From: Paenibacillus sabinae T27
Lineage (GTDB): Bacteria > Bacillota > Bacilli > Paenibacillales > Paenibacillaceae
Direction of reading: 5' to 3'
Assembly: GCF_000612505.1 (NCBI RefSeq)
Contig: NZ_CP004078.1
Coordinates: forward strand, 1,042,001-1,106,000
Length of the DNA: 64,000 nt
A model generated the notes under the pieces. It ran no database searches. It saw nothing but the letters and a program-made list of their open reading frames with translations, and was not told where the DNA came from. Position numbers and translations under genes: made by a program. Of the stretch, positions 51,145 to 61,663 are shown piece after piece; position 1 is the stretch's first letter; every line of letters starts with the position of its first letter.

Positions 51145-52485
51145 ATGAATCTGGCGGTAATCGGCACTGGCTATGTCGGCCTCGTATCGGGCGTATGCTT
51201 TACACTTGGGGGTAACCATGTTATTTGCGTCGATAAGGATGAGGAGAAGATCGCCCGGCTGGGCCAGATGAAGTCGCCCATCTACGAACCGGGTATCGAG
51301 GCGCTGATCGAAATGAACCTGAAAGAGGGAAGACTGAAGTTCTCCTCCGATCTCCGGGAGTCGGTTCGCCTCTCGGATATCGTTATCCTTGCTGTAGGCA
51401 CGCCTTCTCTCCCGAACGGGGAAGCGGATCTGCAGTACATCGAAAGCGCGGCTGCGGACATCGGCCGAGCCATGGAAGGCTATAAGATCATCATGACGAA
51501 GTCTACCGTTCCCGTAGGAACGAACGAGAAAATCCGCCAGATTATCGCTGCCCACACCGGCTATCCGTTCGATATCGTATCGGCGCCGGAATTCCTCCGG
51601 GAAGGCTCGGCCATCCAGGATACGCTGCATCCCGACCGGGTGATCATCGGTCTCGACAACCCGGCCCTTGAGCCCGTTATGCGGGAGCTTCATCAGGGCT
51701 TCACCGAAAATATTGTCGTCACCGACATCCGCAGCGCGGAAATGATCAAGTACGCCTCGAACGCATTTCTGGCAACCAAAATTTCGTTCATCAACGAAAT
51801 CGCCAATATCTGCGAAAAGGTAGGCGCGGATGTGACCGAGGTGGCCGAGGGAATGGGCCTCGACCGGCGGATCGGCTCTTCCTTCCTCCAGGCGGGAATC
51901 GGCTACGGCGGCTCCTGCTTCCCGAAAGATACGAAGGCGCTGATCCAGATCGCAGGGAACGTCGACTACGAATTCAAGCTGCTGAAATCGGTGGTCGAAG
52001 TCAATCAGGGCCAGCGGTTCATGATTCTTGCGAAGCTCCACGAGTCGATAGGCAGTCTGCAGGGTGCGACAATCGGAATCTGGGGACTGGCCTTCAAGCC
52101 GAACACCGACGATGTGCGCGAATCGCCTGCAAGGGAAATCATCGAGGCGCTTGTTAAGGAAGGCGCGCATGTGAAGGTGTACGATCCGATTGCCGCGGAC
52201 AATTTCCGGAAGCAATACGACCACCCGCTGATTCACTGGTGCGCCGTGCCGGAGGAAGCGGGAACCGGCAGCGACGCGGTCTGCCTGCTCACAGATTGGG
52301 CCGTGTTCAAGGATATCGATCTGCACCTTCTGGCAGCAGGAATGCGCAAGCCGATCCTGATCGACGGGCGCAACGTCTACTCCAAGGAACAAATCGAAGG
52401 AACCGGGCTGGAATATTATTCGGTGGGACGCCCGCGGATGGGCGGACTCAGCGGCTTGTCTCCAAGCGTGGCAGGAGCGGTATAA
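51145..52485 (+). CDS. ugd: UDP-glucose 6-dehydrogenase
   Basis: 446 residues. Rossmann motif VIGTGYVGLVSGVCF, VGTPSLPNGEADLQYI, TVPVGT, EFLREGSAI, catalytic Cys in GYGGSCFPKD, and GLAFKPNTDDVRESPA in the C-terminal domain. It oxidises UDP-glucose twice with NAD to UDP-glucuronate, so the polysaccharide likely contains glucuronic acid. Enzymes of this type are known targets of CpsD-type kinases such as the one earlier in the cluster. Confidence 0.97.
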   Translation: MNLAVIGTGYVGLVSGVCFTLGGNHVICVDKDEEKIARLGQMKSPIYEPGIEALIEMNLKEGRLKFSSDLRESVRLSDIVILAVGTPSLPNGEADLQYIESAAADIGRAMEGYKIIMTKSTVPVGTNEKIRQIIAAHTGYPFDIVSAPEFLREGSAIQDTLHPDRVIIGLDNPALEPVMRELHQGFTENIVVTDIRSAEMIKYASNAFLATKISFINEIANICEKVGADVTEVAEGMGLDRRIGSSFLQAGIGYGGSCFPKDTKALIQIAGNVDYEFKLLKSVVEVNQGQRFMILAKLHESIGSLQGATIGIWGLAFKPNTDDVRESPAREIIEALVKEGAHVKVYDPIAADNFRKQYDHPLIHWCAVPEEAGTGSDAVCLLTDWAVFKDIDLHLLAAGMRKPILIDGRNVYSKEQIEGTGLEYYSVGRPRMGGLSGLSPSVAGAV

Positions 52486-52636
52486 GCGGTATATATGGAT
52501 AAGTGACGAACCGGGTCAGGCGCCGCAGACTCAGGCGAAGCAGGTTCGCCGCGGCGGCGCCGCTACCTTAGGATATTCCGTTAAGAAGCAGGCTGTTCAC
52601 GGCTGTATCATGACCATTATGAGGGAGGGTATCATT

Positions 52637-54007
52637 ATGAAACTGGTATTATTGTCTGGCGGTTCGGGAAAACGGCTGTGGCCTCTGTCCAACGACTCTC
52701 GGTCGAAACAGTTTCTGAAGGTGCTGGAAAGCCCGCTCGGCGAGCCGGAATCGATGGTCCAGCGGGTATGGCGGCAGCTGGGAGAAGCGGGACTTGCGGA
52801 ATCGTCGTATTTGGCGACAGGGCGCGGGCAGGTGGAGATGATCCAAAGCCAGCTGGGCGGGGATGTCAAGATCATCGTCGAGCCCGAGCGCCGCGATACG
52901 TTTCCGGCCATTGCGCTGACGGCCGTCTACCTGTATTCGGTAGAAGGCGTTCGCCCGGATGAGACCGTCGCGATCCTCCCGGTCGATCCTTATGTGGAAG
53001 GCTCCTTCTTCGGCTCGATTTCACAGCTGGAGCAGGCGCTTGACGATACCGGCGCAAATCTGGCGCTGATCGGCGTCGTGCCGGAGCATCCCTCGGAGAA
53101 ATACGGCTACATTATTCCTTCGGGCGGCGCGACGGAGAAAGAGGTAAGACCGGTTAGCGGTTTCCTGGAGAAGCCGGATCGCCTGCGGGCCGAAGAGCTG
53201 ATCGGACAGGGCGCCTTGTGGAACTGCGGGGTGTTCGCCTTCCGGCTGGGATATCTGCTTAATATTTTACAGCAAAAAGGGCTGCCTTTGACTTACGAGG
53301 AGCTGCAGAAGCAGTATAAGCTGCTCTCTTCCATCAGCTTCGATTACGAAGTGGTTGAGAAGGAAGACAAGATCGTTGTCCAGCCGTATGACGGATTCTG
53401 GAAGGACTTAGGCACCTGGAATACCCTGACCGAGGAAATGGCGAGCAACCAATTAGGCAAGGGCGTGCTGACTGAGGATTCCTCTACAAGCTGCCTGGTC
53501 AACGAGCTTGATATTCCGATCACGGTAATTGGCGCCCAGGACCTGATCATCGCCGCGAGCCCGGATGGCATCCTCGTCACCCACAAATCGGAAAGCCCGC
53601 GCATCAAAGAGGTGCTGAAGGGCGCGGAGCAAAGACCGATGTACGAGGAACGCCGGTGGGGCCACTATAAGGTGATCGATTACGTCAAATACCAGGAAAG
53701 CAATGAAGTCCTGACCAAGCGGATTTTTATCGCAGAGGGAAAAAATATCAGCTACCAGTATCATCTTAAGCGCAGCGAAATCTGGACCTTTATCAGCGGG
53801 GAAGCCAGCATCATTCTTAACGAGAAATTGCACACGGTGAAAGCCGGAGATGTTGTGCGCATACCGGAAGGAACGAAGCACAGCATTCTCGCGTTGACCG
53901 ATGTGGAATTCATCGAGGTTCAGACCGGATCGGAGCTGGTGGAAGAGGATAATATCCGCATAACGCTGGATTGGAAGGATATTGAACTGCAGCAATTTAT
54001 CTCGTAA
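52637..54007 (+). CDS. manC: Mannose-1-phosphate guanylyltransferase (with C-terminal cupin)
   Basis: 456 residues. Pyrophosphorylase signature LLSGGSGKRLWPLSNDSRSK, zone FLEKPDR and WNCGVFAFR, then a C-terminal type II isomerase cupin domain (KNISYQYHLKRSEIWTFISG; AGDVVRIPEGTKHSI). It makes GDP-mannose. The cupin half may also isomerise fructose-6-phosphate to mannose-6-phosphate. ATG at 52637 follows GAGGGAGGGT; the frame is open 27 bases further upstream. It is the last biosynthetic gene of the cluster. Confidence 0.95.
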   Translation: MKLVLLSGGSGKRLWPLSNDSRSKQFLKVLESPLGEPESMVQRVWRQLGEAGLAESSYLATGRGQVEMIQSQLGGDVKIIVEPERRDTFPAIALTAVYLYSVEGVRPDETVAILPVDPYVEGSFFGSISQLEQALDDTGANLALIGVVPEHPSEKYGYIIPSGGATEKEVRPVSGFLEKPDRLRAEELIGQGALWNCGVFAFRLGYLLNILQQKGLPLTYEELQKQYKLLSSISFDYEVVEKEDKIVVQPYDGFWKDLGTWNTLTEEMASNQLGKGVLTEDSSTSCLVNELDIPITVIGAQDLIIAASPDGILVTHKSESPRIKEVLKGAEQRPMYEERRWGHYKVIDYVKYQESNEVLTKRIFIAEGKNISYQYHLKRSEIWTFISGEASIILNEKLHTVKAGDVVRIPEGTKHSILALTDVEFIEVQTGSELVEEDNIRITLDWKDIELQQFIS

Positions 54008-54087
54008 TAATGCCTGAATGAGGGATAACCTACTTATTAACCATATAACAAGGCTATTAAACGGGTCTTTTGGCTCATTTATTGAAG

Positions 54088-54113: not shown

Positions 54114-54135
54114 AATTGTACACCGTCGATATTTA

Positions 54136-54239
54136 CGGTAGAAGGTTAAGCCTTCCAATACGACAAAGGCAAACCTATCGCGAGGTAGGGACGCAAAGCC
54201 ATAGGGCCTCTCCATTTCAGAGAGGCAGCCTGGCTACCG
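54136..54239 (+). ncRNA. Cyclic di-GMP-I (GEMM) riboswitch
   Basis: The conserved GEMM-I core is present in order: GGCAAACC, a stem CCTATC/GGTAGG capped by a GCGA GNRA tetraloop, GGGACGCAAAGCC, a perfect stem GCCTCTC/GAGAGGC, and the closing GCCTGGCTACCG. CGGTAG (54136-54141) pairs with CTACCG (54234-54239) as the outer stem, and a small GAAGG/CCTTC hairpin sits just inside its 5' strand. Its 3' end directly touches the Shine-Dalgarno of the first GH26 gene, which suggests control of translation initiation by c-di-GMP. CTTCC at 54152-54156 is complementary to GGAAG of that Shine-Dalgarno. Whether the ligand turns the gene on or off cannot be told from sequence. Confidence 0.9.
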
Positions 54240-54247
54240 AAAGGAAG

Positions 54248-56011
54248 ATGAAATTGAAAGTTCACCGTACGTATCGATTGTTCTGCATGCTGGTAACTCT
54301 GTCTCTGCTCCTGTCATTTGTTCCGTTCATGGGCGGAGGAAGCGCATCGACCGTTTCCGCGGCGGCTGCGTCCACAGCGCCGGTGACCCCGGACGCTTCA
54401 CCCGAAGCGGTCAAGCTGCTGAGTTACCTGTATTCCATTTCCGGAACCCGAATTATCACCGGTCAGCATGACTATCTGGAAAGTCCGGACGAGTTCAACA
54501 ACAAGCTTCAAGTAACGAGCAGTAGATATGCAGCTCTCCATGGATATGAGCTTGGCGCGATCAACGGCCAAACGGACGGCGCCGTAACATGGCTCCGGCA
54601 AAATGTGGTGAACAGCGCCATCAAATGGTATAAGTCCGGAGGCATCGTCGCGATGACGTTCCACGAGAATCTGCCGGGAACATCATACAGCTGGTCCAAT
54701 GTGCAGATGTCGTTGTCCCAGGCCGACTTCGACAAGTATGTTACACCCGGAACCCCGGAGTACCAAAATCTGATCACTGAGCTGGACAAGGTGGCGGTTT
54801 CGCTGAAAACCCTGCGCGATGCCGGAGTGCCCGTTCTGTGGCGGCCCTATCACGAAATGAACGGGGGCTGGTTCTGGTGGGGCAAGAAGACGAATTTTAC
54901 TGCTCTCTGGAATATTATGTATGACCGTTTTGTCAATGTTCATAAATTGAACAACCTGATTTGGGTGTGGAGCCCGAATGCTCCGAACGACTGGGCCGAT
55001 CCTTACGCGAAGACTTATCCCGGTGCGGATAAAGTGGATATTCTGGCGGCGGACATTTACAACAAGGACTTCAGACAGAGCTATTATGACGATCTGTTGA
55101 GTTTGGCCGCAGGCAAGCCGATTGCCATTGGCGAGAATGGTGAAATGCCCGATCCTGCGATGCTGCCCAAATATCAGAGCAAATGGGTCTTTATGATGAC
55201 CTGGGGCAAAATGCTCTATGAAAACAACACCACGACTACAATCAAGAGTTTTCTAAACAACGGATTTACGTTAACCCGCGATGAAATTAGTACGGCTCTG
55301 GCTTCGTATACGGTGCCAATGCTGTCGGAAAGCCCGACGCCAAGTCCGTCGCCGACACCATCGCCGACACCGACGCCGAGCCCAACACCATCGCCGTCAC
55401 CGAGTCCAACACCGACACCTACGCCAAGTCCGACACCGACGCCGGTACCATCGCCAAGCCCGACACCAACACCAACACCAACATATACGCCGAACAATCA
55501 GCAGTCCGCTGCGGATTCTTCAACCGATAGCTCATCCTTGACCGCGCTGCTGCCTTCGGCCACGCCTGCGGAGCCACGCCATGGCCTGCTGGGCGAATAT
55601 TTTACCAACATGCAGTTAACCGGGACGCCCGCACTGGTGCGGGAAGAATCGGCCGTCGATTTCAACTGGGGACTCGGATCGCCGGACACCTCCATCGGCC
55701 CCGATAAGTTCTCCGCCCGCTGGAGCGGCAAAATCAAGCCTCTGTACAGCGAGAACTATTCCTTCTATACCAGTTCGGATGACGGTATTAAATTATGGGT
55801 CAACGGCGTTGCCGTTATTACCAGCTGGTCTACCCAATACGGTTTAGAGCGAAAGGGAAGAATCGACCTTGAAGCCGGGAAACTGTATGACATTAAAGTT
55901 GAATATTACGATAATACGGGGAGCGCCAAAGCGCGTCTGATGTGGGAGAGCAGTAGCCAGCTCAAGGAAACCGTTCCAGCCAGCGCGTTTTATCTTTCCG
56001 ATTCGCTTTGA
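54248..56011 (+). CDS. Secreted GH26 beta-mannanase with PA14 domain
   Basis: 587 residues: signal peptide (about 1-40), a GH26 barrel with acid/base Glu in [14 protein letters not shown] (about residue 202) and nucleophile Glu in IAIGENGE (about 294), a Pro-Thr-Ser linker of about 55 residues, and a C-terminal PA14 carbohydrate-binding domain. It should cut beta-mannosidic bonds outside the cell, plausibly in the polymer made by the preceding mannose-handling cluster. The ATG is only two bases from AAGGA; a TTG six bases on (54254) has ideal spacing and may be the real start. An upstream in-frame reading runs through the riboswitch and is rejected. Confidence 0.93.
55320..55495 (+). repeat. 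Pro-Thr-Ser linker repeats
   Basis: Short direct repeats of CCGACACC/CCAAGTCCG-type units encode alternating Pro and Thr/Ser between the GH26 and PA14 domains. Such tracts change length easily. Confidence 0.85.
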
Positions 56012-56084
56012 TATAGCTTTTACGGCTGCCCCTGAGGGTGGCCGCCGATACTTATAATTCATTCAGTTCATTTGAGCCTTGCGA

Positions 56085-56108
56085 GGCCCTGCTTAATACA
56101 GCAGGGCT
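56085..56108 (+). terminator. Hairpin between the two GH26 genes
   Basis: GCCCTGCT and AGCAGGGC arms with a six-base loop, followed by TTCT. It is a possible partial terminator that would reduce expression of the second mannanase. Confidence 0.5.
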
Positions 56109-56200
56109 TCTAAACTATAAGCCCCTCATGGGGAAGACTGTTTTCCCGGCATACGGGAGGCCGGCATTCTCTTAAAGGATTCCTGGCTTAAGAAAGGAAG
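56109..56200 (+). other. Structured leader of the second GH26 gene
   Basis: Two small hairpins (CCCCTCATGGGG; CCCGGCATACGGG) precede CCTGGCTTAAGAAAGGAAG. The last part repeats the 3' end of the riboswitch leader of the first GH26 gene (CCTGGCT, then AAAGGAAGATGAAATTGAA). The aptamer core is absent, so it looks like a leader that was duplicated with the gene and then diverged. Confidence 0.45.
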
Positions 56201-57700
56201 ATGAAATTGAACAAATCCTCCAAGTATCGGTTGTTCACTACGGTTTTACCTTTGATTCTGATCATGTCCCTGCTGCCGTGGATGCATTCGGAAACTCCGC
56301 CCAAGTCCGTAATCCAGACACCGCCCGCTCCGGTTAATCCGTCGGCCTCGCCTGAGGCGGGAGAACTGCTCGGGTTCCTGGCAGGCTTAAGCGGCAAGAG
56401 CCTGATATCCGGCCAGCATGATTATCTGGAAAGTCCGGATGAATTTAATAATAAGCTCGAAAAGGCTACAGGCAAATATGCCGCACTTCACGGTTACGAG
56501 CTTGGAGCCATTAACGGCCAGTCGCCGGACACGATCGACCGCCAGCGGAATGCCGTTGTACATAGCGCCATCAACTGGTATAGAAGCGGCGGGATCGTGG
56601 CCATGACTTTTCATGAGAACCTGCCCGGCACTGCTCCCATATGGTCCAATGTCTCCATGAGTCTGAGCCAAAGCGAGTTTGACGCCTACGTCACTCCAGG
56701 TACGGACCAGTACAACCATCTGATTGCCGACCTTGATCAGATCGCCGGGTATTTGAAGCAGCTGCAGAGCGCAGGAGTGCCCGTTCTGTGGAGACCCTAC
56801 CATGAAATGAATGGGGGCTGGTTCTGGTGGGGCAAGAAAAATAATTTTTCAGCTCTCTGGGATATTATGTATGAACGTTTTGTGGGTAAACATAAATTAA
56901 ACAATCTGCTCTGGGTATGGAATCCGAATGCGCCCAACGGGTATGCCGACGCCTATGCGACCTATTACCCGGGAGCGGACAAAGTTGATATCCTGGCAGC
57001 GGATATATACAACAATGATTTTCAGCAATGGTATTACGATAGTCTGCTGAAGCTTGCAGACGGCAAGCCGATCGCCATCGGCGAGAGCGGCGAGCTGCCA
57101 AATCCCCGGCTGCTGGCCAAGAGCCAGAGCAAATGGGTCTATGTGATGACCTGGGGGAAAATGCTGACCGAGAACAACAGCCAGCGCACAATCAATAGCT
57201 TCATGAACGCCGATTACACGTTATCCAGAGACGATTATATCCAATTGGTGGATAAGGAGGCGGTAGCCGCCGGCAACGGGCTACGGGGAGATTATTTCGC
57301 CAACAGGGAACTGGAAGGCAAGCCGGCTTTCAGCAAGACTGACGCGAATTTGGACTTAAGCTGGCAGGAGGGGACGCCCGGGGAAGCCGTGAACAGCAAC
57401 TTCTTCTCCGTGAGGTGGCAGGGCCGCCTTAAAGCTTCCGGCACCGGAACCTATACGATCAAAGCTGTAGCCGACGACGGTGTACGGGTATGGATCGGCG
57501 GCAAGCTTGTCATCGACAGCTGGGCGCTCCAGAACGATACAGCCCGGACAGGAACGATTAAATTGAAAGAGAATACTTTTTACGACATTAGAGTGGAGTA
57601 CTTCGAAAATAAAGGTAAAGCCGACATCAAGCTGCTCTGGCAAGGTCCGGGGCGGCCGGAAGAGGTCATTCCCCCCAAAGAGCTTTTTCTACCCGACTAA
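56201..57700 (+). CDS. Secreted GH26 beta-mannanase paralogue with PA14 domain
   Basis: 499 residues, clearly a duplicate of the upstream enzyme: [26 protein letters not shown] and [17 protein letters not shown] are shared. Acid/base Glu is near residue 201 and nucleophile Glu in IAIGESGE near 293. It lacks the Pro-Thr linker, so PA14 (about 360-496) follows the barrel directly. The signal region is shorter and less typical (VLPLILIMSLLPWMHSE), without an obvious cleavage site. As in the first gene, a TTG six bases after the ATG is better spaced from AAGGA. The next gene begins 25 bases after the stop. Confidence 0.92.
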   Translation: MKLNKSSKYRLFTTVLPLILIMSLLPWMHSETPPKSVIQTPPAPVNPSASPEAGELLGFLAGLSGKSLISGQHDYLESPDEFNNKLEKATGKYAALHGYELGAINGQSPDTIDRQRNAVVHSAINWYRSGGIVAMTFHENLPGTAPIWSNVSMSLSQSEFDAYVTPGTDQYNHLIADLDQIAGYLKQLQSAGVPVLWRPYHEMNGGWFWWGKKNNFSALWDIMYERFVGKHKLNNLLWVWNPNAPNGYADAYATYYPGADKVDILAADIYNNDFQQWYYDSLLKLADGKPIAIGESGELPNPRLLAKSQSKWVYVMTWGKMLTENNSQRTINSFMNADYTLSRDDYIQLVDKEAVAAGNGLRGDYFANRELEGKPAFSKTDANLDLSWQEGTPGEAVNSNFFSVRWQGRLKASGTGTYTIKAVADDGVRVWIGGKLVIDSWALQNDTARTGTIKLKENTFYDIRVEYFENKGKADIKLLWQGPGRPEEVIPPKELFLPD

Positions 57701-57725
57701 ACAATAGACCGGGAGGTCGGATTCC

Positions 57726-60413
57726 TTGAGAAAGCGAGGACAGGAAATGAGTATACCACGAAAAGCCCTATCTTTAACCGTACTTTTGAAGCTTGCAGGA
57801 TTTATCGTCTTATTTTTGCTGTCTGTCTCTTTTTTAGGGAATGAAGGAGCGGAAGAACCCGGGAATTCCAACTTTTCCACCGCGTATAAGACAGCGCCCG
57901 TATCCCCGCCGGGGAAAATCATCTGGCAGCTGGGCACACGGAATGAATCGTCCGGCGAGTTCGCGCCCAGGGATTCATCATCCGCGGGGAGCGCAGTAAG
58001 TATGGATACATCTGAACTTGACACGGGAGATCTCAAAAAAGTGCCTTCCGGTCTGAATGGCAAGAGCTTGCCCGAACTGCGAATCTCGTACAGCTTGACC
58101 CATATTCCCGACAACGGGGTATTGTTTCAGGTTAGCATTCTCGATGCCTATAAATCCGTCCCTCAGATGGCGGCCTTCTCCAACAGCCAGCTGTCGGGGA
58201 TTATTCAAATCGCGGGCGTTGCGGGAACAGGCAGCGGGTACGATTTCCGTAAAACATACGATTTGTATATTCCAAAGGAACAGCTGAAAATTGGCACAAA
58301 CGAGCTCAAGCTGAAAGTGGTCCGTTCCATGTATGCGTCGAGCGCGGAGGACCAATATTCATGGTGGACCTGGGACGATCTCAGCCTGCGTTCGCTGAAT
58401 TCGCCGATCAGCGAGCCGATTCATGGCAGCTATGTGCTTACGGGCACCATGGTTGCCAACAAGCAGTTTTATTTTGATACAGGCGCCACCGCTCATCTGC
58501 CGTACATTATCAAATGGCTCGGTTTGGCCTACAGCGGCAATATTATGCGGACGGGCGGCGCCAGCGATGTAGGCTTTTCCCGTTCCGACCTGGAGAATTA
58601 CTACAAGGTGCTTAAGGATTACAATATGCAGTCGGTCGCGCTGTATTTGTACACCGGGAATATCAAGCTGAATGCGGACGGCTCCCTGCCGGATAGCGCG
58701 AAGAAGAAGCTGACCGATTATTTCCGGCAGTACGGCTCATATTTTCAGTATTACGAGGTAGATAACGAACCCGGCTTGTTTAACCGCTCCAAGGCGGTCA
58801 ACCTGGCGATTGCCGACTGGCTGAACAAGGAGGGTAAACAAATCGCGCCTCATCTTAAGACGGTTGCTCCGGGCTGGGCGTATTGGCCGGCATACAAGGA
58901 GGATTCCTGCGGGAACCAGAGAGGGGACGTCAAGCAATGCGGCGACCCGGACGGCTGGGAACGCGATCCCGCGCAGCGGCTGGAGCTGGAGAAGATCACA
59001 GATCTTACGAACGGCCATTCATACGGGGATTCTTACGTCGCCAAGAACGGCGGCAGCTTTACCGAGAACCTGAAGACTTTCCAAGGCTCGAATGACGGGC
59101 TTCCCAAAAAAATGCTGGTTTCCGAGTTCGGCACCTCCGACACTCATGTGGACGATTATCATTACGGGGCGAAGGAGCGGACGTCGGCCGCGTTCGACCG
59201 GATTATGAGAGCTCATATCGGCTATGCGGATATGTTCGTGCAGCACGCTGCCTTTTTCTACAATTTCAGTCTGTTTCAGTTCAAAAACGTTAATCTGAAG
59301 ACGCATGATCCGGCCAAGACGGAGATTTACTATACCAAGGAAGGCGAGGATTCCCGCGTCAGAATCATGCGCAGACTGAGCTTGGCCTATGCGACCCACG
59401 GCGCCCCGCTCACCTATAATCTGCTGAACAAAAGCGCGCTTGCCGACAAACTGGTATACGTCCGGGCCGTGGATACCTCCAAGCTGGCTCCGCTGGCGGG
59501 AAGCGATGCGACATCGAACAAGGTGCTGGTGAACTTCGTCAATTTCGAGAACACACCGCAGACCGTAAGCGTCAAAGTCACCATGCCCAAGCAAACGATC
59601 TATGAGGGAGAGCGTTTCGGTGACGGCAATACGTATGAAGAAGCGCGCCGTTACGTGACCGGCCTGCAGGCGAAGCCTGAGCTTACCTTTACGGAAACGC
59701 TGGCTCCGGGAGAGGCTGTACAATATATTTTGCAGCCTTCCTCGGAAGTAGCGGATGAGGCGCCAAAGAGCCTGACGGCCACCGCCGTCAGAGGGACCTC
59801 CGTACAGCTGAATTGGCTCGAATCTCCCGGGACCGGCTATGATGTGTTCCGCGCGGAGGGCGCGGATAACCAACTGAGGCAGATCGCTTCTAAAGTTCAA
59901 GCTACGTCGTACACCGACCGTGCGCTTAAAGAGGGAGTTCTGTACACTTACGGGGTTCGGGTAACGGGCAAAACGCTGCTGTCGGCCAAGACGCAGATTA
60001 CGGCTACCGGCCTGGTGCCGCTGGATCGGACCGGCTGGAAGGTCTCGGACAATTTGAATATGAGCGAAAAAAAGCTTTCTTATATGATCGACGGAGATCT
60101 GAGCACCCGGTGGGATAGCGGTAAAAATATGACCTCCGGCGAAATGGTTCAGATCGACATGGGAAGCTCGCATTCCCTGGAGGCCATAGAGATGGACACC
60201 TCCAAATCTCCATACGATTATCCGAGGATCTACAACATTTATGTATCGGAGGACGGGCAGAACTGGCAGCAGATCACGTCGGGCAGGGGAAGGAAGGACG
60301 TCAGCATGTATCCTTTTGCCCAGACAAGGGGCAGGTATGTCCGAATCGTCCAGACCGGAACCGGCGGAAATTTCTGGTCCATCCACGAATTGCAAATTTA
60401 CTCAAGAGAGTAG
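57726..60413 (+). CDS. Large secreted TIM-barrel glycosidase with FN3 and F5/8-type domains
   Basis: 895 residues. N-terminal membrane/signal segment; a beta-sandwich domain (about 60-225) resembling the C-terminal carbohydrate-binding domain of rhamnogalacturonan lyases; a catalytic barrel (about 240-560) with likely acid/base Glu in YYEVDNEPGLFN (about 345) and nucleophile Glu in MLVSEFGTSDTH (about 465), as in clan GH-A; a beta-sandwich; an FN3 domain (about 680-760); and an F5/8 C (CBM32-like) domain at the C-terminus. I cannot assign a numbered family; GH39/GH5-like is the nearest look. The TTG start follows GGGAGGT; ATG at 57747 is an alternative. It probably acts on the local EPS with the two mannanases. 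Confidence 0.82.
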   Translation: MRKRGQEMSIPRKALSLTVLLKLAGFIVLFLLSVSFLGNEGAEEPGNSNFSTAYKTAPVSPPGKIIWQLGTRNESSGEFAPRDSSSAGSAVSMDTSELDTGDLKKVPSGLNGKSLPELRISYSLTHIPDNGVLFQVSILDAYKSVPQMAAFSNSQLSGIIQIAGVAGTGSGYDFRKTYDLYIPKEQLKIGTNELKLKVVRSMYASSAEDQYSWWTWDDLSLRSLNSPISEPIHGSYVLTGTMVANKQFYFDTGATAHLPYIIKWLGLAYSGNIMRTGGASDVGFSRSDLENYYKVLKDYNMQSVALYLYTGNIKLNADGSLPDSAKKKLTDYFRQYGSYFQYYEVDNEPGLFNRSKAVNLAIADWLNKEGKQIAPHLKTVAPGWAYWPAYKEDSCGNQRGDVKQCGDPDGWERDPAQRLELEKITDLTNGHSYGDSYVAKNGGSFTENLKTFQGSNDGLPKKMLVSEFGTSDTHVDDYHYGAKERTSAAFDRIMRAHIGYADMFVQHAAFFYNFSLFQFKNVNLKTHDPAKTEIYYTKEGEDSRVRIMRRLSLAYATHGAPLTYNLLNKSALADKLVYVRAVDTSKLAPLAGSDATSNKVLVNFVNFENTPQTVSVKVTMPKQTIYEGERFGDGNTYEEARRYVTGLQAKPELTFTETLAPGEAVQYILQPSSEVADEAPKSLTATAVRGTSVQLNWLESPGTGYDVFRAEGADNQLRQIASKVQATSYTDRALKEGVLYTYGVRVTGKTLLSAKTQITATGLVPLDRTGWKVSDNLNMSEKKLSYMIDGDLSTRWDSGKNMTSGEMVQIDMGSSHSLEAIEMDTSKSPYDYPRIYNIYVSEDGQNWQQITSGRGRKDVSMYPFAQTRGRYVRIVQTGTGGNFWSIHELQIYSRE

Positions 60414-60475
60414 GCGAAGTTGCGGAAGCTTAACCTGGCGGTCCCGATAACTTGAGAAAGGGCGTGATCGACAAG

Positions 60476-61663
60476 ATGACCCATCAAGCCGATTCCATCC
60501 TTATGCTGCTGGCCGCTCTTATGCTGGTAGGGGTACTGTCCACCAAATTTTCTTCGCGGTTTGGGCTGCCGTCGCTGGTCCTGTTTATCGCCGCGGGCAT
60601 GATTCTCAGCCGCTTTGTTTATTACAATAATGTGCCGCTCACTCAATTTGCGGGCCTGTTTGCTCTTGTCGTCATTTTGTTTGAGGGCGGCATGCAGACC
60701 CGTTTCAAGGATATCCGGCCGGTGATCGGCCCTTCGCTGGCGCTTTCCACCCTGGGGGTGCTGGTTACGACTGCCGTAGTGGGGCTGTTCGCCACATGGG
60801 TTCTAGATGTTTCCTGGGCGGAAGGGCTGCTGTTCGGAGCCATCGTCGGATCGACGGATGCCGCGGCGGTTTTCTCTGTACTGGGCGGCAAGAATATCAA
60901 TAAACGCCTGACTTCCACGCTGGAGGCGGAGTCGGGCAGCAACGACCCGATGGCGGTCTTTCTTACCGTGTCGTTGATCGAATGGATACACGATCCGGAT
61001 ACCGCGGTATGGCGTCTGCTGCTGTCTTTCATCTGGGAGATGGGAATTGGCCTGCTCATAGGCCTGGCAATGGGCAAAACTACTGTTCAGGTGATCAACC
61101 GGATCAACCTGGATTCCACCGGCCTTTATTCCGTTATGGCCTTCGGATTTGCCGTGCTGACCTACGGCTCGGCCGCTCTGCTGCACAGCAGCGGTCTGCT
61201 TGCGGTCTATACGATGGGGCTTGTTCTCGGCAATTCCGAGCTCACCTACTACCGCACCATTATGAGCTTCAATCACGGATTCGGCTGGATGATGCAGATC
61301 TTCATGTTCATTTTGCTCGGTCTGCTGGTCTTCCCCCAGGAACTGGTGAATATCGCCTGGGAGGGGCTGCTTCTGTCTTTCATATTAATGCTGGTGGCCC
61401 GGCCGATCGGCGTCTTTTTAAGCCTGCTCTTTTTTAAATACTCCATTCACGAAAAAACACTCATCTCCTGGGCGGGACTCCGGGGCGCCATTCCGATCGT
61501 TCTCGCCATGTACCCGCTCCTGGCCGGGCTGGAGCACGGCAGGATGTTCTTTAATGTTGTCTTTTTCGTCGTCCTGACCTCGGCCGTCATTCAGGGAACA
61601 ACCATCTCCCCGCTCGCGATGAAGCTTAAGCTGATTGGCTCACAAGCGGGCGGCTCCCGCTGA
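60476..61663 (+). CDS. CPA1-type cation:proton antiporter (NhaP/CvrA-like)
   Basis: 395 residues, 12 or so helices. Ion-path motifs: VILFEGGMQTRF, GSTDAAAVFSVL, ESGSNDPMAVFL and GLRGAIPIVLA. It exchanges K+ or Na+ for protons across the membrane. NhaP2/CvrA proteins usually carry a C-terminal TrkA_C regulatory domain; here it is absent. The start is uncertain: ATG 60476 has AAAGGG 13 bases away, while TTG 60452 and GTG 60464 are in frame upstream. It lies 60 bases after the glycosidase gene, so read-through from the riboswitch-controlled operon is possible. Confidence 0.88.
   Translation: MTHQADSILMLLAALMLVGVLSTKFSSRFGLPSLVLFIAAGMILSRFVYYNNVPLTQFAGLFALVVILFEGGMQTRFKDIRPVIGPSLALSTLGVLVTTAVVGLFATWVLDVSWAEGLLFGAIVGSTDAAAVFSVLGGKNINKRLTSTLEAESGSNDPMAVFLTVSLIEWIHDPDTAVWRLLLSFIWEMGIGLLIGLAMGKTTVQVINRINLDSTGLYSVMAFGFAVLTYGSAALLHSSGLLAVYTMGLVLGNSELTYYRTIMSFNHGFGWMMQIFMFILLGLLVFPQELVNIAWEGLLLSFILMLVARPIGVFLSLLFFKYSIHEKTLISWAGLRGAIPIVLAMYPLLAGLEHGRMFFNVVFFVVLTSAVIQGTTISPLAMKLKLIGSQAGGSR

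Follow-up and report, generated by a model that had tools for sequence, protein, structure and literature searches.

In the GEMM-I riboswitch Vc2 of Vibrio cholerae, P1 switching masks the ribosome-binding site when the ligand is bound, as a section of PMC9262584 relates, citing Inuzuka 2018. The start of T4 gene e (lysozyme), like that of I-TevI, is hidden in a long early RNA, whilst late promoters located in the 5' strand of the masking helix yield a short, translatable RNA that lacks this strand (passages of PMC3014915). In Paenibacillus polymyxa WLY78, reverse-transcription PCR shows manC, pepM and pepN to be co-transcribed, and motility rose after deletion of pepA-manC, according to parts of PMC7911366. 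Here we analyse 64,000 nucleotides of Paenibacillus sabinae T27 (the window; contig NZ_CP004078.1, positions 1,042,001 to 1,106,000), in which a cyclic di-GMP (c-di-GMP) aptamer adjoins the Shine-Dalgarno of GH26a, a predicted hydrolase gene placed behind exopolysaccharide (EPS) genes. An initial annotation, made from the letters of this DNA, had read the element as a c-di-GMP riboswitch gating EPS-degrading enzymes. That reading is partly supported, but it missed a SigD-type promoter block, a long-range helix (P0) and a conserved anti-Shine-Dalgarno.

The reading we favour, at a probability of about 0.5, is a c-di-GMP OFF riboswitch acting on translation of the EPS-cluster hydrolases and nested in an RNA lock that overlaps the promoter. 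A SigD-type promoter would give a short mRNA beginning inside the 5' arm of P0. At low c-di-GMP, hairpin H of this short mRNA would hold CUUCC and leave the Shine-Dalgarno free, and GH26a would be translated; at high c-di-GMP, P1 would form and CUUCC:GGAAG would extend it, hiding the Shine-Dalgarno. In an mRNA reading through from the EPS genes, the 5' arm would be complete and would pair with codons 3-9 as P0, and translation would be poor. The hydrolases would then be made by cells departing the matrix, production in motile, low-c-di-GMP cells being the likeliest outcome. More tentatively, the leader may be a three-input gate, in which a covarying helix silences matrix-operon read-through, its 5' strand containing a motility-sigma promoter and its loop a c-di-GMP OFF riboswitch. 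The confidence expressed below for the aptamer, P0, the OFF sign, the lock and SigD reflects judgement, not computation. Relatives are grouped as g1 (the window's genus), g2 and g4 (other genera of the same family) and f6 (another family of the same order); we assume that g2 is the P. polymyxa group on the basis of its gene order and a P. polymyxa homologue.

Helix P0 and the promoter block

The leader and the early coding region of GH26a hold complementary arms (Table 1), and both the complementarity and its compensatory changes are established among relatives. Loci were chosen by the -10 block G[AT]CGATA, located 5' of hairpin H, and comprised 58 of 59 aptamer loci in L010-L072, L163, 18/18 g2 loci and three of four g4 loci (80 in all); L057 (aptamer, different leader), L070 and L216 (no G[AT]CGATA) are excluded from the counts. 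All 60 distinct arm pairs form a calculated duplex, at -17 to -29 kcal/mol, an energy reached by 0-6 of 200 dinucleotide-shuffled coding starts per locus. Other 45-base segments of the same loci reached the native energy in 8 of 11740 cases, and the native segment was best in 54/60. Most of g1 pairs UACGGUAAG with CUUACCGUA and most of g2 pairs AGGGUAAG with UUUUAUUCCU or UUUUACCCCU; both sides have changed in L191 (UAGGAUAAG/CUUAUUCUA) and in L200 (CAAAGGAUGAG/CUCAUCCUUUG, also L202). When the arms were cross-tabulated against coding starts, each group's arm found its best partner in its own coding start (6/6 rows). P0 is very probably a selected structure, and would be a regulatory layer independent of the riboswitch because the helix outlived riboswitch loss in g4.

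Because the 5' arm overlaps the -10 element, an RNA beginning at 54137 would lack most of the arm, whereas read-through RNA has it whole. For the 65 distinct loci with a recognised Shine-Dalgarno, we calculated the cost of opening 33 bases from that site; in 63 of them, read-through RNA was costlier to open than SigD-start RNA (46/46 in g1, 14/16 in g2, 3/3 in g4). Mean costs were 14.9 versus 8.4 kcal/mol in g1, 12.8 versus 9.5 in g2 and 20.8 versus 9.9 in g4, and 13.4 versus 8.9 kcal/mol at the window's own locus. When the 12 bases preceding the modelled start were scrambled, the means fell to the short-RNA level in g1 and g2 (8.5 and 9.4 kcal/mol) and to 11.3 kcal/mol in g4. Together, the promoter block and P0 suggest that hydrolase control is set apart from the EPS operon, and we give even odds that P0 acts on GH26a translation as a read-through lock.

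A plain c-di-GMP riboswitch with no such lock is an unlikely alternative, in which the P0 complementarity would reflect a DNA-level site, mRNA stability or the maintenance of an inverted repeat. The -10 element that the 5' arm overlaps does not have to be transcribed, which suits this alternative, and template switching can keep inverted repeats alike. Several results oppose it. P0 is retained in full form in three of the four loci of g4, where the aptamer is missing (the fourth, L216, lacks the GTCGATA block). The scrambling results also stand against it, as does the excess of G-U over A-C mismatches that a same-strand RNA helix predicts: 45 versus 24 over 18 arm positions and 36 versus 8 over positions 1-15, counted in 33 distinct pairs, many shared by descent, with bulged registers (most of g2, g4, L191 and three g1) set aside.

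The promoter assignment draws on what we take to be the SigD (sigma-28) consensus, TAAA-N14-16-GNCGATAT. The genome encodes a FliA/SigD protein above the NCBIfam cut-off, and its own flagellin gene is preceded by TAAA-N15-GACGATAT, which matches that presumed consensus. Among other g1 members, 19 of 25 distinct upstreams have TAAA 14-16 nt to the 5' side of the block (shuffles predict 2.1), as do 9/9 from g2 (0.8 expected), or 28/34 together. SigD use is well supported across the family by these upstreams; at the window locus, where the -10 element matches, the -35 TAAA is absent and the label 'SigD-type' rests on relatives, we judge it equally likely to hold or to fail. A genome scan with the SigD pattern gave 16 matches against five for the reversed pattern; 13 of the 16 had a frame of at least 80 aa within 250 nt, among which flagellin alone was recognised, by eye and with no family search, and a pattern-defined SigD regulon was dropped. 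A candidate antisense promoter in the P0 3' arm was also discarded, no TTTA being seen at the right distance by eye in two sequences.

A number of observations count against the lock and its promoter. TAAA is found in 0/10 distinct upstreams of the window's clade (and in 0/3 of g4), so the promoter at this locus may be weak or not SigD. Scrambling at the window locus removes only part of the opening cost (13.4 to 11.3 kcal/mol), and L191, one of the covariation cases, is one of the two loci where opening costs no more in read-through RNA (9.8 versus 10.8). One of 197 other segments at the window's locus pairs slightly better than the native one, and the L191 and g2 coding-start columns are matched slightly better by the L200 arm. 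Divided at the modelled start, P0 shows clearly stronger pairing in its 5' part than in its 3' part in four of six groups, the window's included (about equal in the other two); since RNA from 54137 lacks that 5' part, P0 would matter in the longer RNA only. The helix covers early codons and leaves the Shine-Dalgarno and start codon in the loop, a less direct arrangement than in T4 gene e. Finally, read-through at this locus is itself extrapolated from P. polymyxa.

The aptamer and the sign of the switch

The element at 54159-54242 is, with near certainty, a c-di-GMP-I riboswitch aptamer. It scores 70.2 bits against RF03167 (cut-off 59), spans model positions 1-80 of 80 and is the sole Rfam gathering-level match in the 64-kb window; RF01051, the family against which the initial annotation had proposed a search, scores it at 69.7 bits. 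The aptamer was correctly placed in contact with the Shine-Dalgarno of a GH26 gene, GGAAG beginning right after the last paired P1 base, although the 54136 start of that annotation falls in the leader. The aligned blocks AAAGGCAAACC, GACGCAAAG and ACCGAA are intact, and the predicted ligand-contact position 20 is G, not A. We take the contact bases to be G20, A47 and C92, numbering and roles included, and A at position 20 to mark the cyclic GMP-AMP (cGAMP) type. The genome (5.27 Mb, one contig) contains 18 GGDEF matches and at least nine c-di-GMP-I matches, all above cut-off, a lower bound from scoring 150 of 475 first-look candidates. Elsewhere in it (C1:657465-657698), tandem c-di-GMP-I aptamers precede a probably secreted protein of ~300 aa.

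On the 5' side of the aptamer, positions 54141-54156 read GAAGG-UUAAG-CCUUCC. CCUUC:GAAGG forms hairpin H, and a one-base shift gives CUUCC:GGAAG (S), with a bulge of two bases between S and P1. Of the 46 distinct leaders of alignment A1, 38 contain CUUCC and 43 contain CUUCC or CCUUC. The folding comparison required CUUCC, a P1 able to pair and a hairpin of 5 bp, which left 46 distinct g1 and g2 loci, with ligand and tertiary energies outside the model. Without ligand, H was favoured over S+P1 by a median of 2.4 kcal/mol; with P1 imposed as a ligand proxy, S+P1 was favoured over H+P1 in 33 of the 46 (median 0.7 kcal/mol).

An OFF switch, in which c-di-GMP represses the hydrolases, is likely, because the conserved CUUCC can pair with the Shine-Dalgarno as an extension of P1 and Vc2 offers a precedent for P1-driven masking. 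The SigD-type promoter of many relatives fits expression at low c-di-GMP. An ON switch, with c-di-GMP activating the hydrolases for chain trimming or release during EPS synthesis, is improbable. GEMM-I aptamers are known in both senses, as stated in part of PMC9262584, and the window's own locus leans away from an OFF sign, belonging to the 13 reversed loci of the 46 with H+P1, Shine-Dalgarno free, the better ligand-compatible fold by 1.0 kcal/mol. However, inspection by eye, without a systematic search, found no conserved alternative Shine-Dalgarno partner that ligand could displace; ligand would help the P1 extension, much as in the translational OFF switch Vc2 (PMC9262584, in part); and the SigD-type promoter of those relatives suits low c-di-GMP. 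Both chain trimming and release at a drop in signal had been envisaged in the initial annotation; the anti-Shine-Dalgarno favours release, although the folding of the window leans the other way.

Genes of the locus and conservation among relatives

The coordinates of the leader and its genes are collected in Table 1.

Table 1. Leader elements and genes at the hydrolase locus, in window coordinates
Feature	Position	Strand	Basis
UDP-glucose 6-dehydrogenase (UGD) of EPS cluster	51145..52485	+	TIGR03026, 465.6 bits
ManC, mannose-1-phosphate guanylyltransferase	52610..54007	+	Protein family search
SigD-type -10 element, GTCGATAT	54125..54132	+	Sequence; TAAA -35 absent here, present in many relatives
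P0, 5' arm	54125..54143	+	-19.3 kcal/mol as a duplex with 54261-54278; controlled by shuffles, cross-group pairing and sliding windows
Modelled SigD transcription start GG, inside P0 5' arm	54137..54138	+	Predicted from -10 position
Hairpin H, GAAGG/CCUUC, would hold anti-Shine-Dalgarno with Shine-Dalgarno free	54141..54155	+	Alignment A1; energies
Anti-Shine-Dalgarno CUUCC, can pair with 54243-54247, extending P1	54152..54156	+	Sequence
c-di-GMP-I-GGC aptamer	54159..54242	+	Rfam RF03167, 70.2 bits, E 1.4e-14
Shine-Dalgarno GGAAG	54243..54247	+	Sequence; GG[AG]AG there in 46/46 distinct leaders of alignment A1
GH26a, predicted secreted GH26 + PA14	54254..56011 (TTG start preferred; listed ATG 54248)	+	Pfam PF02156, 194.5 bits; PF07691, 98.4 bits
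P0, 3' arm, in GH26a codons 3-9 counted from TTG 54254	54261..54278	+	
GH26b, paralogue, GH26 + PA14	56201..57700	+	PF02156, 191.5 bits
Third protein (895 aa), CBM-like, clan GH-A-like catalytic region, Fn3, CBM32-like	57726..60413	+	

The same-strand EPS cluster expected before the riboswitch is present: UGD and ManC precede it, and farther 5' of UGD lie Wzz, a ParA-type ATPase, a nucleotidyl transferase, sugar transferases and two Wzy_C proteins, also on this strand. A Na/H exchanger gene (60452-61663) follows the third protein. One weak + strand match to an intrinsic terminator between ManC and GH26a (54063-54076) was rejected as unconvincing, in a scan of this locus that found six candidates against 8.1 expected. 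The listed ATG of GH26a directly adjoins the Shine-Dalgarno, and an in-frame TTG, at 54254, lies at a usual distance from it. In P. riograndensis this spacing averages 7.8 bp and 9% of starts are TTG, according to a portion of PMC5670726, and TTG 54254 is for these reasons the likelier start.

GH26a and GH26b share 65% identity over 346 aa and belong to GH26 by Pfam profile and by two glutamates, both present in the HEMNG and GEN/SGE motifs (GENGE in GH26a), which we take to be catalytic. GH26 covers specificities besides beta-mannanase. Where a mannanase, a second mannanase and a large glycosidase had been named, the two GH26 genes and the 895-aa protein stand, with 'mannanase' a family-level label for predicted enzymes and with no glycoside-hydrolase catalytic domain matched in the third protein by Pfam. 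A Pro/Ser/Thr-rich linker repeat (55320-55490) joins GH26 to PA14 in GH26a and is missing from GH26b. Before GH26b, an apparent remnant of the aptamer 3' end with the same Shine-Dalgarno and start stretch (56165-56211) indicates that the duplication creating GH26b may have taken along part of the leader.

The third protein has a CBM-like module (below cut-off), an Fn3 module (just below cut-off) and an F5/8C module (Pfam). D346-N347-E348-P349 and E467 are invariant among 27 homologues, in keeping with clan GH-A catalysis, for which we take a TIM barrel bearing an NEP acid/base and a second glutamate as nucleophile to be typical. Structure models, of the whole protein and of the catalytic domain folded alone, were of moderate quality (pLDDT 67 and 66). 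Foldseek matched the domain best to GH30 and GH44, weakly (best E 5e-6, TM 0.25-0.38, rmsd 11.5-14); as the whole model and the domain together resemble GH39, GH30 and GH44 weakly, no family was assigned, and the protein is best described as a predicted GH-A-like glycosidase. VIA-align was run on the whole model only, where CBM32 took up its list. Relatives of residues 228-676 include proteins of P. rhizophilus, at 94%, and of P. polymyxa, at 66%.

A GH26 relative at E <= 1e-60 was present in 65 of 100 same-genus genomes. Conservation of the aptamer's place is established within g1: the aptamer lies just 5' of GH26a in 59 of the 63 loci L010-L072 (the window being L010), which include several species fetched twice and comprise 46 distinct leaders. 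The earlier proposal was right that the aptamer sits where it could regulate the translation of hydrolases of the EPS cluster. Of the four misses, three (L056, L065, L068) end at a contig edge, and L070 (P. caui) is truly without the aptamer; an Rfam re-scan of ten named loci recovered RF03167 in nine, L070 again giving none. In further g1 sets, partly overlapping the first in species, the aptamer was found in 13/13 (L132-L144) and 19/20 (L165-L184, the miss being the contig end of L178); L056, L065, L068 and L178, whose contigs end upstream of GH26, were dropped. The search patterns were loose and gave scattered false matches (L045 and L085, the latter with no Rfam match), and the counts include only matches at the position expected. 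The g1 loci share the gene order UGD-ManC-aptamer-GH26a-GH26b-third gene.

The g2 loci carry a single GH26 with an aptamer, and RF01051 was reached in 10/10 CGC-type loci scanned (52-58 bits) and in L191. Fifteen of 18 g2 aptamers (L185-L190, L192-L199 and L201, the P. polymyxa-type pepM leader; aligned in L147) read AAACGCAGCCC against the consensus AAAGGCAAACC, with C at the G20 equivalent and neighbouring bases also changed. L200 and L202 gave no Rfam riboswitch at gathering level, and L152 none at E<=1; by eye, the leaders of these three loci (G187, G317) keep hairpin H, the anti-Shine-Dalgarno, P0 and a P2/P3-like frame without the GEMM core, and the element could be either a decayed aptamer or a new one. 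In g4 (L145, L146, L148, L149) and f6 (L154-L160), UGD-ManC-GH26-third gene is present and no aptamer was found. Some f6 loci (L157-L160) have, by eye, a different inverted repeat before the GH26 Shine-Dalgarno, with no Rfam match there. Another f6 locus (L153, g33) combines GH26 and the third gene with an RF03167 aptamer and a different expression platform, and no ManC or UGD match was found in its stretch. A ManC+GH26 tree of 33 loci rooted on f6 places g2 outside g1+g4 (split support 0.90), making loss in g4 simpler than two gains of the aptamer, an idea that was dropped. The simplest history would place the aptamer in the ancestor shared by g1, g2 and g4 and its loss in g4, with the promoter block and P0 staying in three of four g4 loci.

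That the enzymes mainly digest plant mannan or other outside glycans, their EPS placement and c-di-GMP control serving surface foraging, is the least probable alternative: although Paenibacillus grows on plant material, most solved GH26 relatives bear the name beta-mannanase and relatives also hold GH26 genes outside EPS genes (no c-di-GMP aptamer in an Rfam scan of 10 such loci), the UGD-ManC-GH26-third gene linkage is kept in two families, aptamer-less loci included. Action on the strain's own EPS, as we infer here, would also agree with the hydrolysis of its own polysaccharide that the authors propose for PepM and PepN (PMC7911366, in part).

Known systems and significance

EPS clusters can carry hydrolases against their own polymer, and the locus bears on how cells avoid making the cutters while making the polymer. 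If our favoured reading is true, the answer is encoded in the leader RNA, where motility (SigD), c-di-GMP and matrix dispersal are joined, and a phage-type read-through lock operates on a bacterial chromosome. In the open-access literature, by titles and abstract starts, the matches listed included no c-di-GMP riboswitch on Paenibacillus EPS hydrolases, no such helix and no T4 gene e-type lock on a bacterial biofilm gene. The riboswitch class and the gene pair are known, and what appears to be new is a second RNA layer, strongly conserved.

The nearest gene set is pepM-pepN of the P. polymyxa pep-2 cluster, which shares the order UgdH-ManC-GH26-glycoside hydrolase (PMC7911366, in part); the terms 'c-di-GMP' and 'promoter' are absent from the main text of that paper. 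That set has one GH26 where P. sabinae has two, and most aptamers of the matching g2 genomes carry the C at the G20 position noted above. Because P. polymyxa EPS is of industrial interest, control of PepM and PepN would be of practical value. Cd1 of Clostridioides difficile is a GEMM-I OFF switch, as is predicted here, but it acts on transcription of flagellar genes, the opposite target class (passages of PMC9262584). The likeness to Vc2 lies in the aptamer class and the predicted P1-driven masking; unlike in Vc2, the anti-Shine-Dalgarno here stands on the 5' side of the aptamer, also takes part in a small hairpin and belongs to a unit placed whole in the loop of a longer helix. In T4 gene e and I-TevI a promoter occupies the 5' strand of the masking helix; here a candidate promoter element, the -10-like block, forms part of the 5' arm, in loci that were chosen by that block. 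Unlike the T4 gene, the putative lock described here, known from sequence, belongs to a chromosomal EPS hydrolase, would use a sigma-D-type promoter, places its helix on early codons and encloses a riboswitch in its loop.

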